Shown piece after piece: positions 27,119-31,642 of a DNA stretch of 40,981 bases; position 1 is the stretch's first letter; each line of letters begins with the position of its first letter. The notes beneath the pieces were generated by a model, which did no database searches, was not told the origin of the DNA, and saw nothing but the letters and a program-made list of their open reading frames with translations. Made by a program: the position numbers and the translations under genes. Origin of the DNA: a virus; the IMG/VR virus record IMGVR_UViG_3300022200_000119, positions 1 to 40,981 of that record; one strand, written 5' to 3'.

Positions 27119-27517
27119 ATGAACAGAGATCAATTAAGAGAAGCCGTACTCGGCACCGCAGCCTGGAAGAAGGCTGGTTTACTTAACGAGTCCGTTGCTC
27201 CCGTTCAGGAGCAAGAGGTCCTCGAAGAAGCTAAGGCCGAGGAGACTGCTCCTGAGGCTCACACCTGCCCTCTCTGCGAGTCCACCCTTGATGGTGAGCT
27301 TTCCGATGAGGTTCTTCTTGAGCACGCCGAGGCTATGCTAGGCGTCTTTGAGGAAGCAGAGCAACTACTCGCTGAGGCTGAGGAAGCCGAAGAAGGTGAG
27401 GTTATCGAAGAAGAAGAGGAAGTAGATCTCCTCGAAGGTCTTGACGAAGATGAGGTTGACGAAGTTGTTGCTTTCGTTAACGAAATGTACGGCAAGAAGA
27501 AGAAGGCCAAGAAGTGA
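27119..27517 (+). CDS. Acidic prohead core protein, gp67-like position, with CPLC motif
   Basis: A 132-aa, very acidic protein. It has an N-terminal basic/hydrophobic segment (MNRDQLREAVLGTAAWKKAG), then LLNE at 21-24, a HTCPLC element (C50, C53) followed by H69, long glutamate-rich helices, and a lysine tail (KKKKAKK). Gene order (core - core - protease gp21 - scaffold gp22 - capsid gp23) matches T4 67-68-21-22-23, so a scaffold-core role is likely. LLNE fits the (L/I)xE consensus cut by gp21-type proteases. C50-C53-H69 could be half of a zinc site. Strong AGGAG upstream. Codons here favour GAG/GAA with CTC/CTT and CGC-type choices more than the tail genes, as in other abundant head proteins. 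Confidence 0.6.
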   Translation: MNRDQLREAVLGTAAWKKAGLLNESVAPVQEQEVLEEAKAEETAPEAHTCPLCESTLDGELSDEVLLEHAEAMLGVFEEAEQLLAEAEEAEEGEVIEEEEEVDLLEGLDEDEVDEVVAFVNEMYGKKKKAKK

Positions 27518-27528
27518 GGCTCTAAATA

Positions 27529-27951
27529 ATGGCTTCTCTTAATGAAACGGGTATGGGGATTGGTGATTTTGCTCAGGCTTTGCTTGTGCAAGAGAAAACC
27601 AATCCTCAGCCTGTTTCACGCAAAGCTCCCGTGAGGGGCAATGTGCCCAATATAGAGAATGTTCAAGTTCTTCAAGAAGATGTTAATGATGTTCTTGCTA
27701 ATTCCTTCGGAGTTAAGCGAGATCCTGTACCTCAGGTCAACCTTCAAGAAGAAAGGAAGAAGCAGATTAAGGAACAGATTCAGGTTAAGATTAATGAACT
27801 GAAGGAGCTTCTTAACGAGCTAGGTGTTACTGCTGGAACTACGACTGTAGGGAGCTTAGGTGCTCCTAACTATTCTAAAGGATGTAGCCATGAGTCTAAT
27901 AAAGGAAATAAGAAACCTAAGAGACGGGCAAAAGTTAGAAGAAAAAAGTGA
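27529..27951 (+). CDS. Prohead core protein, gp68-like position
   Basis: A 140-aa protein whose SD (GAGG) overlaps the upstream stop codon region. Residues ~65-97 are a charged helix (ERKKQIKEQIQVKINELKEL). It then runs into LNELGVTAGTTTVGSLG at 95-111, which matches the major capsid protein LDEAAVGTGTTTVGALG (residues 48-64) over 17 positions without gaps. The LNE/LDE start fits the gp21 cleavage consensus. The tail is highly basic (KKPKRRAKVRRKK). The 3' end overlaps the next gene by 62 nt in another frame. Position suggests a gp68-type core protein; no direct family recognition. Confidence 0.55.
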   Translation: MASLNETGMGIGDFAQALLVQEKTNPQPVSRKAPVRGNVPNIENVQVLQEDVNDVLANSFGVKRDPVPQVNLQEERKKQIKEQIQVKINELKELLNELGVTAGTTTVGSLGAPNYSKGCSHESNKGNKKPKRRAKVRRKK

Positions 27952-28324
27952 TCGTTACCCTTCAGGAAGAGGAACTTATAAAAGAAAAAATAGGGTTACC
28001 TCTAGGAAGAGTAGAGTTCCTGTGTACAAAACAATTAAAGATGCTCTAGGTAAAACCTCTCCTGGAACTATCTTCTCAACCAAAGGTTCTTACAGAATGT
28101 ATGTAACGACTGCTGGTGGTTGGGGAAAGAGTAAGCAGCAAAGAGTTTCTGGTAGAACTGCTAAAGGATTCACTCCTGGAAGTGCAACGCCTAGCGCAGA
28201 CTGGAAAAGTGTTAAAAGCCACGCGGCTAGAACCAAGGTGAAGCATGGTCAAGGTTCTGAGAAGAAGCTTACGGCCAAGGCTCGTAGAAAGAAAGACAGA
28301 CCCAAGAAATACGGAGATAAGTAA
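27890..28324 (+). CDS. Small basic head-module protein of unknown function
   Basis: I start this gene at ATG 27890, which has AAAGGA at 27878-27883; an earlier in-frame ATG at 27860 lacks a comparable site. The product is 144 aa and strongly basic throughout (SRKSRVP, KKLTAKARRKKDRPKKYG). A central part, GTIFSTKGSYRMYVTTAGGW, could be a small beta domain. The 5' end lies inside the upstream gene (62-nt overlap), and the stop overlaps the protease ATG by one base (TAATG). DNA- or core-binding inside the prohead is a guess from charge and neighbours. Confidence 0.5.
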   Translation: MSLIKEIRNLRDGQKLEEKSDRYPSGRGTYKRKNRVTSRKSRVPVYKTIKDALGKTSPGTIFSTKGSYRMYVTTAGGWGKSKQQRVSGRTAKGFTPGSATPSADWKSVKSHAARTKVKHGQGSEKKLTAKARRKKDRPKKYGDK

Positions 28325-29421
28325 TGTTATTAGAAGATGTATTCATTATAGAAAACTTACAGGTCCTCAACGAGGGCAAAACAGGTCCAATGCGAGTCCG
28401 TGGTGTTTTTCAGCGTGCAGACGAAGAGAACAACAATGGTCGTATCTACCCTAAGGCACTGCTTGAGCGTGAGATAGATAAGCTTTGTGAGTCTATGAAG
28501 GGCCGTCGTCTTATGGGTGAACTTGATCACCCTCAACATGATAGCGTCAAGCTCTCCAATGTCTCTCACCTTATTACCAAGCTAGAGGCTAAAGGAAACG
28601 AGATTATCGGTGAGGCTGAGATTCTTGATACTCCCATGGGTAAGGTAGCCAGAGCACTTATTGAGGGTGGGGTTCAGATCGGTATCTCTTCTAGAGGTAT
28701 GGGAACTCTTTCCGAAGGTCAGGATGGTAAGCGTTATGTTAATGAGGACTTCCGCCTTATCACCTGGGACCTTGTTGCTGATCCTTCAACCCGTGGTGCA
28801 TTCCCCTCCCTTGCTGAGTCTCGTCAAAGTGTCCTTGTAGAAGAGATTATGAATGAGGTTCTTCCTCGCGTAACTAAGGAGAAGGTTTTTAGCACCTTAT
28901 TAGCAGAACAACTTAACGAAGCCAAGATGAAGAAGGCTAAAAAGAAGAAAGCCAGCAAGAAAGGCAAGCTCGATCCTGTCGGTCAAGAAGATGAGGATGT
29001 TAACAACGATGGCAAGGTAGACAGCACTGACGGTTACTTAAAGAACCGTAGAAAAGCTATTGGTGCTGCCATGGGCAAGAAGTCCAAGAAGATGAAGGGA
29101 AAAAAATTCATGAAGAAAGAATCAACTCTGTTCCCTCGTCTTGGAAATATATTTGAACAATCAAAAAGAGAAGACTCGCCTAGAGTTTTCCCTCGTCTAG
29201 CTAACCTTCTAGGTGAAGGCTTTAAGAAAGATAAAGGTTCAGGCGCTGCTTACAAAAGATCATCTCATAAAATGTATAAGTATGGTGGAAAGTACAGAGA
29301 TGCGGTAATTGCTGGTGAGCAAGCTAGAAGAGTTCTTAGCGGACAAGAGCAACCAAAAACGCCTCCTGGTAAAATTCCTGGGCCTCCCCCAGGGAAAAAG
29401 CAACAAGACGACAAAAAATAG
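28324..29421 (+). CDS. gp21: Prohead maturation protease gp21 with C-terminal extension
   Basis: A 365-aa protein. Residues ~20-165 are a T4 gp21-type protease: NNNGRIYPKALLE, GRRLMGELDHP with likely catalytic H69, VQIGISSRGMG with serine at 122/123, and WDLVADPSTRGAFPSL with a candidate aspartate. Family knowledge: gp21 is activated in the prohead and cuts scaffold, core and capsid at (L/I)xE sites. Beyond ~200 there is an unusual extension: a lysine-rich stretch; an EF-hand-like loop D225-N227-D229-K231-D233-D236; two FPRL repeats (LFPRLGNIF at 269, VFPRLANLL at 288); and a Pro/Lys tail. T4 gp21 is about 212 aa, so the extension is additional. It may act as a scaffold-binding or self-cleaved piece. 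Confidence 0.9.
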   Translation: MLLEDVFIIENLQVLNEGKTGPMRVRGVFQRADEENNNGRIYPKALLEREIDKLCESMKGRRLMGELDHPQHDSVKLSNVSHLITKLEAKGNEIIGEAEILDTPMGKVARALIEGGVQIGISSRGMGTLSEGQDGKRYVNEDFRLITWDLVADPSTRGAFPSLAESRQSVLVEEIMNEVLPRVTKEKVFSTLLAEQLNEAKMKKAKKKKASKKGKLDPVGQEDEDVNNDGKVDSTDGYLKNRRKAIGAAMGKKSKKMKGKKFMKKESTLFPRLGNIFEQSKREDSPRVFPRLANLLGEGFKKDKGSGAAYKRSSHKMYKYGGKYRDAVIAGEQARRVLSGQEQPKTPPGKIPGPPPGKKQQDDKK

Positions 29422-29478: not shown

Positions 29479-30102
29479 ATGGATAAAAAGAAAATAGAAG
29501 ACATTGCTCAGTTACTTCCTGAAGGTATCACCGAAGAGACCATCGTTGAAATCGCTGGTGTTATGCAGGGTTTAATTGAGGAAAGAGTACAGGAGGAAGT
29601 TAGCGAACTTACCGACAAGGTTTTCGCTTACCTATCCATGAAGCGTCAGCAGATTCATGAAGCTGCCCTTGAGGAGCTTCATGAGTCCAATGATGTTTAC
29701 CGTGACGCACAGAGATTCCGTGAGCTTATGGGCTACATGGCTGTCGAGTATCGTCCTGAGTATATTGATGCTGAGAGCGAGAAGAGACTGTCAGAGGCTA
29801 CTGAGCTTGTAGAGGATAACGAAGTCCTCGCCCGTGAGCTTTCCGAGTCACTAAGAGAGCAAGATCGTCTTGCCAAAACAATTCAACTGCTAGAATCTAA
29901 GGTTTCAAAGCGTGAAAGAGAAATCGAATCACTTAATGAGAGCGTACAGAATCTAGTGGAAGAAAAGGAGACTATGCTGTTCGAGTCTACCGAGCAAGCT
30001 GTAGTCGTTACTAACAATGTAGACGAAGAGGTTGAGGATGAACGACTGGAAAGTATTGGAAATCAGTTCTTAACCGAAGAGATGCTCAAGCTTATGCGAT
30101 GA
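29479..30102 (+). CDS. gp22: Prohead scaffold protein gp22
   Basis: A 207-aa protein, nearly all charged helix. Heptad-like coiled coil runs from ~35 to ~165 (for example QLLESKVSKREREIESLNES and LVEEKETM). The C-terminus NQFLTEEMLKLMR is a short amphipathic end like that of gp22-type scaffolds. It lies directly between protease and capsid genes, exactly as gene 22 does in T4 (269 aa there). The scaffold forms the core on which gp23 assembles and is then degraded by gp21; several (L/I)xE sites are visible (LPEG, LHES, LNES). Own SD (TTGGAG) and possible own promoter. Confidence 0.85.
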   Translation: MDKKKIEDIAQLLPEGITEETIVEIAGVMQGLIEERVQEEVSELTDKVFAYLSMKRQQIHEAALEELHESNDVYRDAQRFRELMGYMAVEYRPEYIDAESEKRLSEATELVEDNEVLARELSESLREQDRLAKTIQLLESKVSKREREIESLNESVQNLVEEKETMLFESTEQAVVVTNNVDEEVEDERLESIGNQFLTEEMLKLMR

Positions 30103-30127: not shown

Positions 30128-31642
30128 ATGGATTTAATGGAAATGGGTGCCAGTGACGACCTCGTACAAAAGTGGGGTCCTGCACTAGACGGCATCGAAA
30201 ATGATTACACCAAGAGAGTAACTGCACAACTTCTAGAGAACCAACTTAAGTCTTGTCAGCAAGAGAAGCTTGATGAGGCTGCTGTTGGCACAGGCACCAC
30301 TACTGTTGGAGCCCTCGGCACTTTCCAGAAGTTTGCATTCCCTCTCGTTCGTCGGGTTTATCCCGAACTAATCGCTAACCAGCTTGTTAGCGTTCAACCT
30401 ATGAGCGGTCCCGTCTCACAGGTCTTCTACCTTGGTGCAGCTAGAGCTTACGGCAACAACCGCGAGACTATCTACAGCAAGTACAACCTAACTTACCGTG
30501 GTCTTACCACTGGTAAAGTTAACCCATTCCAAACTGGTGACGGCACCACTATTGATGTTGATGACGCCAGCGCCCCCACTTCTCAACAGTTTGGTGTTTC
30601 TGCTCTTACCAAAGCTTTTACTGACGGCAGCAACATGGCTAGTGCTATCGCTGAGTGGCCCGAAGCTAACTTCGCTCAGGGTTGGTCAGTATCCGCTGGT
30701 GAAAGACTTTCTGGGTCTGCAATCCCAGAGGTCACCCTTCAGATCGAGCAACAGCCTGTTGTCGCACGCACCAAGAAGATGCGTGCTCTCTGGACTCTTG
30801 AGGCTTCACAGGACCTTAAGGCTTACCACAACCTAGATCTTGAGCGTGAGCTTACTGATCTTCTTGGTAAGGAGATTCGTCTAGAGGTTGACCGTGAGAT
30901 TATCGAGAACCTTCGTGGTCTTGCTTACGATGCAACAGGTTCCACTGGCAACCTTTTCAAGGAAACTTACCTTGATCAGGCCAGCAACCAAAGCACCATG
31001 GGTAACTTTACTAGCCCCGGTAATGTCAATGATTCTACCTTTGGTGATTTCCTTTTCGATGCAGGCACTCTTCCTAGCTCCGCTGCTGGAAGTAACAAGA
31101 ATGTCTTCCTTGTAGATTTCGAGTCAAGTGCTCTTAACTTAGCTCCTCGTCACATTGGCGATGTTTACGCAAACCTTCTAGGTGCTATTAACTTCGCCGC
31201 TCAAGACATCTTCAAGACCACTCAGCGTGGTGCTGGTAACTGGATGCTTTGCTCACCTGTTGTTGCAACAATCCTTGAGACTGCTGCAAAACTAACTGGT
31301 GGTATTGAAGCTTCTGACGGTCCAACTAACTTCGGTCCTGGTAGCATCCAGTTCCGTGGTAAGTTCATGGGTCGTTACGATCTCTTCATTGACCCCCTCT
31401 ATCCTGAGGGTGAAATTCTCATGGGTTACAAGGGTAGTAACCCCATGGACGGTGGTTTCGTGTACTCACCCTACATCCCCTTCCAGGCTCTACCCACCAT
31501 CACTGACCCTGAGAGCTTCCAGCCCAGAAAGGGTATCCTTACTCGTTATGGCAAGGCTGCTGTTGCACCTGCTTCAAGATTCTACAGAGTTATTAGACTC
31601 GTTGGATCTTCTAGCTTGTTCAACCCCTTCCTTAATGTCTGA
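30128..31642 (+). CDS. gp23: Major capsid protein gp23
   Basis: A 504-aa T4-type capsid protein. Recognisable elements are FQKFAFPLVRRVYPELIANQ and VSVQPMSGPVSQVFYLG (~66-102), then KTKKMRALWTLEASQDLKAY-like text near 220, and the closing region GKAAVAPASRFYRVIRLVGS. The residues KLDE at 47-50 precede AAVG and fit the gp21 cleavage site, giving a ~50-residue propeptide (65 in T4). SD AAAGGA lies 9 bases upstream. Arginine codons here are mainly CGT/CGC whereas tail genes use AGA, consistent with high expression. A strong terminator follows. T4 gp23 is 521 aa. Confidence 0.97.
   Translation: MDLMEMGASDDLVQKWGPALDGIENDYTKRVTAQLLENQLKSCQQEKLDEAAVGTGTTTVGALGTFQKFAFPLVRRVYPELIANQLVSVQPMSGPVSQVFYLGAARAYGNNRETIYSKYNLTYRGLTTGKVNPFQTGDGTTIDVDDASAPTSQQFGVSALTKAFTDGSNMASAIAEWPEANFAQGWSVSAGERLSGSAIPEVTLQIEQQPVVARTKKMRALWTLEASQDLKAYHNLDLERELTDLLGKEIRLEVDREIIENLRGLAYDATGSTGNLFKETYLDQASNQSTMGNFTSPGNVNDSTFGDFLFDAGTLPSSAAGSNKNVFLVDFESSALNLAPRHIGDVYANLLGAINFAAQDIFKTTQRGAGNWMLCSPVVATILETAAKLTGGIEASDGPTNFGPGSIQFRGKFMGRYDLFIDPLYPEGEILMGYKGSNPMDGGFVYSPYIPFQALPTITDPESFQPRKGILTRYGKAAVAPASRFYRVIRLVGSSSLFNPFLNV

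Follow-up and report, generated by a model that had tools for sequence, protein, structure and literature searches.

In bacteriophage T4, the cleavage consensus of the prohead protease gp21 is (I/L)xE, and the capsid-targeting sequence (CTS) of internal proteins is an N-terminal propeptide that stands ahead of the gp21 cut and is removed. The T4 protease shows very few apparent cleavage determinants (PMC9026906). The T4 proteins gp22, gp67 and gp68 are degraded to small peptides, while the N-terminal regions of gp23* and gp24*, disordered in the prohead, relocate to the outside of the shell as it expands and bind adjacent subunits (PMC9958956). The T4 N-fist (residues 66-91) is disordered in portal-facing subunits, where the neighbouring capsomer is absent (PMC7136217). 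The way in which the core proteins of T4-type proheads locate and contact the shell has been called unresolved (PMC9958956). In this study we focus on a motif that, across a large group of microbial viruses known from uncultured material and T4-like by sequence, is shared by the major capsid protein and a prohead core protein. Because the motif is shared and its two copies appear to change together, the sequences suggest that the core and the shell protein plug into a common place during head building.

The window, that is the whole stretch of DNA analysed, comprises 40,981 nucleotides (IMG/VR record IMGVR_UViG_3300022200_000119) and contains a T4-type structural cluster in the order gp67-like protein, core protein, basic protein, gp21, scaffold in the gp22 position and gp23. 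The gp67-like acidic protein (27119-27517) is followed by a prohead core protein of 140 residues (27529..27951, + strand), by a basic protein of 143 residues (27893-28324; N-terminus MSLIKEIRNLRDGQKLEE), which is an extra gene between core and gp21, and by the gp21-like prohead protease (28324..29421, + strand; phrog_207, E 1.6e-53; PF03420, E 2.3e-25). The peptidase S77 domain of this protease (PF03420) adjoins the gp22 and gp23 genes in the gene order 21-22-23, as for T4 gp21. The gp22-position scaffold protein (29479..30102, + strand) lies between gp21 and the gp23-like major capsid protein (30128..31642, + strand; phrog_138, E 2.1e-79; PF07068, E 2.9e-79), and the latter also gives a profile match to the solved chains of T4 gp23 (E 9.7e-46). 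Among the matches listed, the identity of this gp23 to the best phage records is at most about 31%, so the virus stands far out within the T4 superfamily; a candidate home for it is the Far-T4 group of uncultivated phages (PMC4360716). An AlphaFold2 model of gp23 computed from 12 sequences had a pLDDT of 39 and was left out of use.

Two further features of this region can be mentioned in their own right. In the gp67-like protein, a conserved HxCPLC motif resembles a zinc hook (PF04423, E 3e-4, under the cut-off) and is also found in the related loci L001, L005, L007, L013, L017, L021 and L024. The segment 26716-27039 encodes a protein of 107 residues with HGDS and GxxxVxxxG-type segments, which looks by eye like a PAAR-like spike tip and has no match in PHROGs or Pfam.

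For the core protein, AlphaFold2 predicts helices at residues 4-7, 11-24, 49-60 and 72-97, and then a disordered basic tail (mean pLDDT 69.9, pTM 0.23). The long predicted helix of residues 72-97 (27742..27819, + strand) ends at the E of LNE (27811..27819, + strand), a predicted gp21 cleavage consensus with the cut after E97. The peptide predicted to be released, LGVTAGTTTVGSLG followed by the basic tail, would comprise residues 98-140 (27820..27948, + strand), that is 43 residues with a net charge of +11, and would contain the shared motif. Five scans of viral contigs yielded some 200 related loci, and an iterated profile recovered the core protein in 135 of the 244 sequences searched (77 distinct); many of the remainder are fragments that begin too near gp23 to contain the gene, and at five loci the core ORF was not found in the upstream DNA searched. 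Among 66 aligned homologues, the column of E97 is E in 61, in line with the (L/I)xE consensus of a gp21 substrate, the part ahead of LxE is net negative in 61, and the part behind it is net positive in all 66, with a median charge of +8 and a median length of 43.5 residues.

T4 gp68 (141 residues) resembles this core protein in length, in the position of its gene between the gp67-like gene and gp21, and in its layout, with an acidic N-terminal part, LxE and a basic C-terminal tail. It differs in lacking the gp23-like motif, and in the window the extra gene at 27893-28324 separates the core gene from gp21. Comparison by hhalign (A2, A5) with seven gp68 proteins returned probabilities of 0.2-0.4%; because profile similarity is absent despite the like position and charge layout, we do not file the core protein as a gp68 orthologue. 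The core protein has no match in PHROGs or Pfam, and tblastn searches of 50,697 phage records with the window core and one distant core returned none. P-HM2 and C48C1 were rejected as carriers of the core gene, different genes occupying the position. The same core/gp23 pair is present in L114 (QCKN01000003.1), a 130-kb contig from a Prochlorococcus single-cell assembly, which is not proof of the host.

Residues 95-111 of the core protein (LNELGVTAGTTTVGSLG, 27811-27861) pair without gaps with residues 48-64 of gp23 (LDEAAVGTGTTTVGALG, 30269-30319), and 11 of the 17 positions are identical; this likeness, noticed in a preliminary description of the window, is confirmed on the rechecked translations. 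When 26 window proteins are compared in all 325 pairs, the core/capsid pair gives the highest-scoring ungapped 17-mer match (BLOSUM62 score 53, runner-up 50), and the highest score in 2,000 shuffles of the core was 40 (Gumbel p ~5e-5 before correction for the choice of the pair). After that correction p is only about 0.01-0.02, and the window pair alone is modest evidence since it was in effect chosen as the best of many. The likeness is not due to chance, the decisive support being its conservation in relatives.

The preliminary description placed the start of the shared segment at LxE. Both proteins do carry this tripeptide, as LNE in the core and as LDE in the capsid protein (30269..30277, + strand), where the predicted cut after E50 corresponds to the boundary between pro-region and N-fist of T4 gp23, but the likeness proper is limited to GTTTVGxLG, LxE being common merely as the protease consensus. 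The core copy, GTTTVGSLG, covers residues 103-111 (27835..27861, + strand), and the capsid copy, GTTTVGALG, residues 56-64 (30293..30319, + strand) of what would be the mature N-terminal tail, directly before FQKFAFPLVRR.

In 79 non-redundant relatives, the core proteins have a near-invariant LxE, usually followed by T-T-x-G-x-x-G and then by the basic tail, and the N-terminus of gp23 has the same motif between LxE and FQKFAFPLVRR. These alignments define a short linear motif, T-T-x-G-x-(L/I)-G, which closely follows a gp21-type cleavage consensus in each of the two head proteins; homologues keep it, and its absence from them had been named as evidence against the earlier claim. When core and capsid are aligned on the motif, they agree at T in 93%, at G in 99% and at the second G in 93% of cases. 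The likeness begins behind the E and ends at the last G, where gp23 enters the N-arm helix; upstream of the cleavage consensus and past the last G, agreement is at background. Scored with a matrix derived from 8 capsid residues, the last of them the final G of the motif, 84% of the 79 core homologues rise above 6 bits; the share is 4.6% for shuffled cores and 8.7% for other ORFs. The core motif is degenerate or lost in some relatives, such as L005 (GTGVGNIG), L017 (TGTGCCGCNMGG) and L107.

Among 1,982 ORFs near head genes, the pattern T[TS][VTAC]G.[LIVM]G occurs in none beyond gp23 and core: gp22, the gp67-like protein and the CTS-bearing basic internal protein are all devoid of it. No third carrier could be retained from this search, the scattered matrix matches being unrelated. 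That the motif closely follows the cleavage consensus in the two proteins could be explained if it were an extended recognition element of gp21, formed by primed-side subsites or an exosite, in two high-copy substrates, and shared adaptation to gp21 could then also produce co-variation of the two copies. However, the distance between LxE and the motif varies from 0 to 11 residues in the core and from 0 to 12 in gp23, which fixed subsites would not permit and which therefore disfavours recognition by protease subsites. Moreover, an element of this kind is missing from gp22, from the gp67-like and CTS-bearing basic proteins and from all other nearby ORFs, and it sits poorly with the very few apparent determinants of T4 gp21 (PMC9026906). 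We thus regard a role as protease recognition element as unlikely.

As to the earlier reading, by which the cleavage site and its flank were duplicated between the two head genes, the codons of the 79 loci bear no sign of a recent duplication or of gene conversion, though an ancient duplication is conceivable. In the window, 30 of the 51 bases are identical and the same codon is used at 4 of the 11 identical residues; over the 79 loci there are 442 identical residues, and the same codon is used at 150 of them where codon usage would predict 199, a deficit that should not be over-read because the expectation was drawn from capsid codon usage only. Since codon sharing is no higher than codon usage predicts, the likeness reflects selection on the protein and not a recent DNA duplication; it is kept, or was made, at the protein level.

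The two copies also show signs of changing together. Cognate pairs of core and capsid 10-mers score 28.1, against 23.1 for non-cognate pairs, and cognate pairs exceed swapped ones (p = 0.0002) when permutation is restricted to clusters whose capsid proteins are at least 75% identical. Disjoint nearest sister pairs gave 18 positive and 6 negative differences with 15 ties (sign p 0.011, Wilcoxon 0.0017), and the motif-anchored version 19:8 (sign p 0.026, Wilcoxon 0.0045). Control windows elsewhere in gp23 or core, with scores of 13-18, have zero cognate effect. The excess is located at the variable positions -4 to 0, 3 and 5; core and capsid both read NIGGTTTVGR in L213 and YGPGTTTVGS in L009, while the two proteins have AAATTTGQIG against AAATTTGQLG in L127, and QEATTVGNLG against EEATTVGNLG in L244. 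Co-variation in homologues, which the preliminary description had put forward as a check, is thus seen within clades and between sister pairs but barely in a partial Mantel correlation of core and capsid motif similarity from which capsid body and gp21 similarity were removed (r = 0.06, p = 0.10). Because of this weak value, the cognate signal may partly reflect shared ancestry, and co-variation is probable, not proven.

The weak partial Mantel result would also be expected from an ancient duplication, or from low-complexity convergence with no common partner, in which a flexible Gly/Thr-rich linker is favoured beside cleavage sites and the likeness is neutral in other respects. The richness of the motif in G, T and S, its loss in some homologues and the modest significance of the lone window pair after correction for pair choice go in the same direction. 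This explanation is nevertheless very improbable in our view: it is opposed by the agreement of three motif positions in 93-99% of anchored core/capsid pairs, by the cognate excess at variable positions that the control windows lack, and by the absence of the motif from the other ORFs near the head genes.

The alternative offered by the preliminary description, a recognition tag for protease, scaffold or shell binding, is strongly supported, the motif being conserved, confined to two proteins and probably co-varying. Its protease version is weakened by the 0-12 residue spacing and by the other ORFs that do without the motif; the version that fits best is docking to the shell. In a profile alignment, the motif falls near QTSGAVTQIG of T4 gp23, where the N-fist ends and the N-arm starts. 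We propose, with about an even chance of being right, that the basic core peptide freed by gp21 mimics the tail of mature gp23 and binds the shell at the site used by that tail. The helical part of the core protein would assemble inside the prohead, and gp21 would cut both core and gp23 after LxE. The cut core would yield a peptide whose new N-terminus resembles the mature gp23 tail, and this peptide may dock at, or compete for, shell sites otherwise taken by gp23 tails. Candidate docking places are positions with no neighbour's tail, such as the vertices or the portal, and the basic tail of the docked peptide would then face DNA or acidic core fragments. We infer the cleavage at LxE, the docking site and the role of the basic tail from these sequence patterns.

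If the gp23 tails move outward as in T4, an internal fragment must follow them or act before expansion; and since T4 gp68 ends as small peptides (PMC9958956), the freed fragment might simply exit the head. The motif could instead serve in the prohead, the uncleaved core binding a partner of uncleaved gp23 (e.g. gp22 or gp21) so that the core is tied to the shell, with the fragment lost later. An acidic N-terminal part in 61 of 66 homologues and a basic C-terminal part in all 66 would suit such a linker between scaffold and shell, and the fate of gp22, gp67 and gp68 in T4 (PMC9958956) agrees with loss of the fragment. However, core and gp23 are unlike upstream of LxE, although the gp23 part is removed on maturation, and the motif persists in mature gp23, where it adjoins the conserved N-arm helix. 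We give this prohead-stage linker as little credit as the protease element, and prefer imitation of the mature gp23 tail. A larger form of the imitation proposal is possible, if rather doubtful: the core would provide a cleavable decoy of the mature tail, joined to a basic peptide that binds DNA. This decoy would fill tail-docking sites and link proteolysis with capsid expansion and DNA packing, and it would be widespread in uncultured T4-superfamily phages.

A literature search, with most subscription journals outside its coverage, found no description of a tail common to shell and core proteins. A sequence common to the mature shell tail and the core, and probably co-varying between them, points to a specific common binding site. 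The motif could thus serve as a testable handle on the core-shell contact, and as a marker for head-core genes of uncultured phages, which the family libraries searched do not recognise.

The maturation of T4 gp23 and gp24 by gp21 resembles the present case in gp23 homology, in the LxE consensus and in a tail that leads from the cut to the N-arm helix. However, a shared gp68/gp23 tail was not detected in T4 and six Straboviridae/Vibrio phages, scores of 14-20 being near background, and gp68 there differs from the window core in having no detectable gp23-like tail. The QTTG of gp68 and the gp23 sequence Q(T/S)(T/S)G in T4 and its relatives are a weak lead only. The mature N-termini of T4-family gp24 proteins, after LLRE, LLSE or LISE, read STTT or SNTT and then an NSxGRP-type segment, loosely like the motif; such N-termini occur at L119:10324-11607, L250:8125-9357, L253:8107-9351 and L255:8449-9354. 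In SaPI1 and phage 80alpha, competing scaffolds reportedly let different internal assembly proteins contact the shell protein via similar short motifs; that motif is common to two scaffolds, and not to a shell and a core protein as here.

The CTS of T4 is likewise a short sequence common to several head proteins beside a gp21 site, but it is a propeptide ahead of the cut and is removed, whereas the motif described here follows the cut and is retained by the shell protein when it matures. Being internal and behind LxE, the motif was rejected as a T4-type CTS. Separately, members of the 27893-28324 family (135 homologous ORFs) often start with similar short segments ending in LL(N/T/V)E|K/A, which resemble a T4 CTS with its gp21 site. 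Several neighbouring ORFs ahead of gp21 share the near-identical N-terminus MNYIQRI(Y/H)DLL(V/T)EA and then diverge fully (L157:789-1926, L163:719-1844, L165:30-1714, L070:1826-2110 and L130:557-1832, one L130 copy lying within an ORF); this N-terminus looks like a CTS of internal head proteins.
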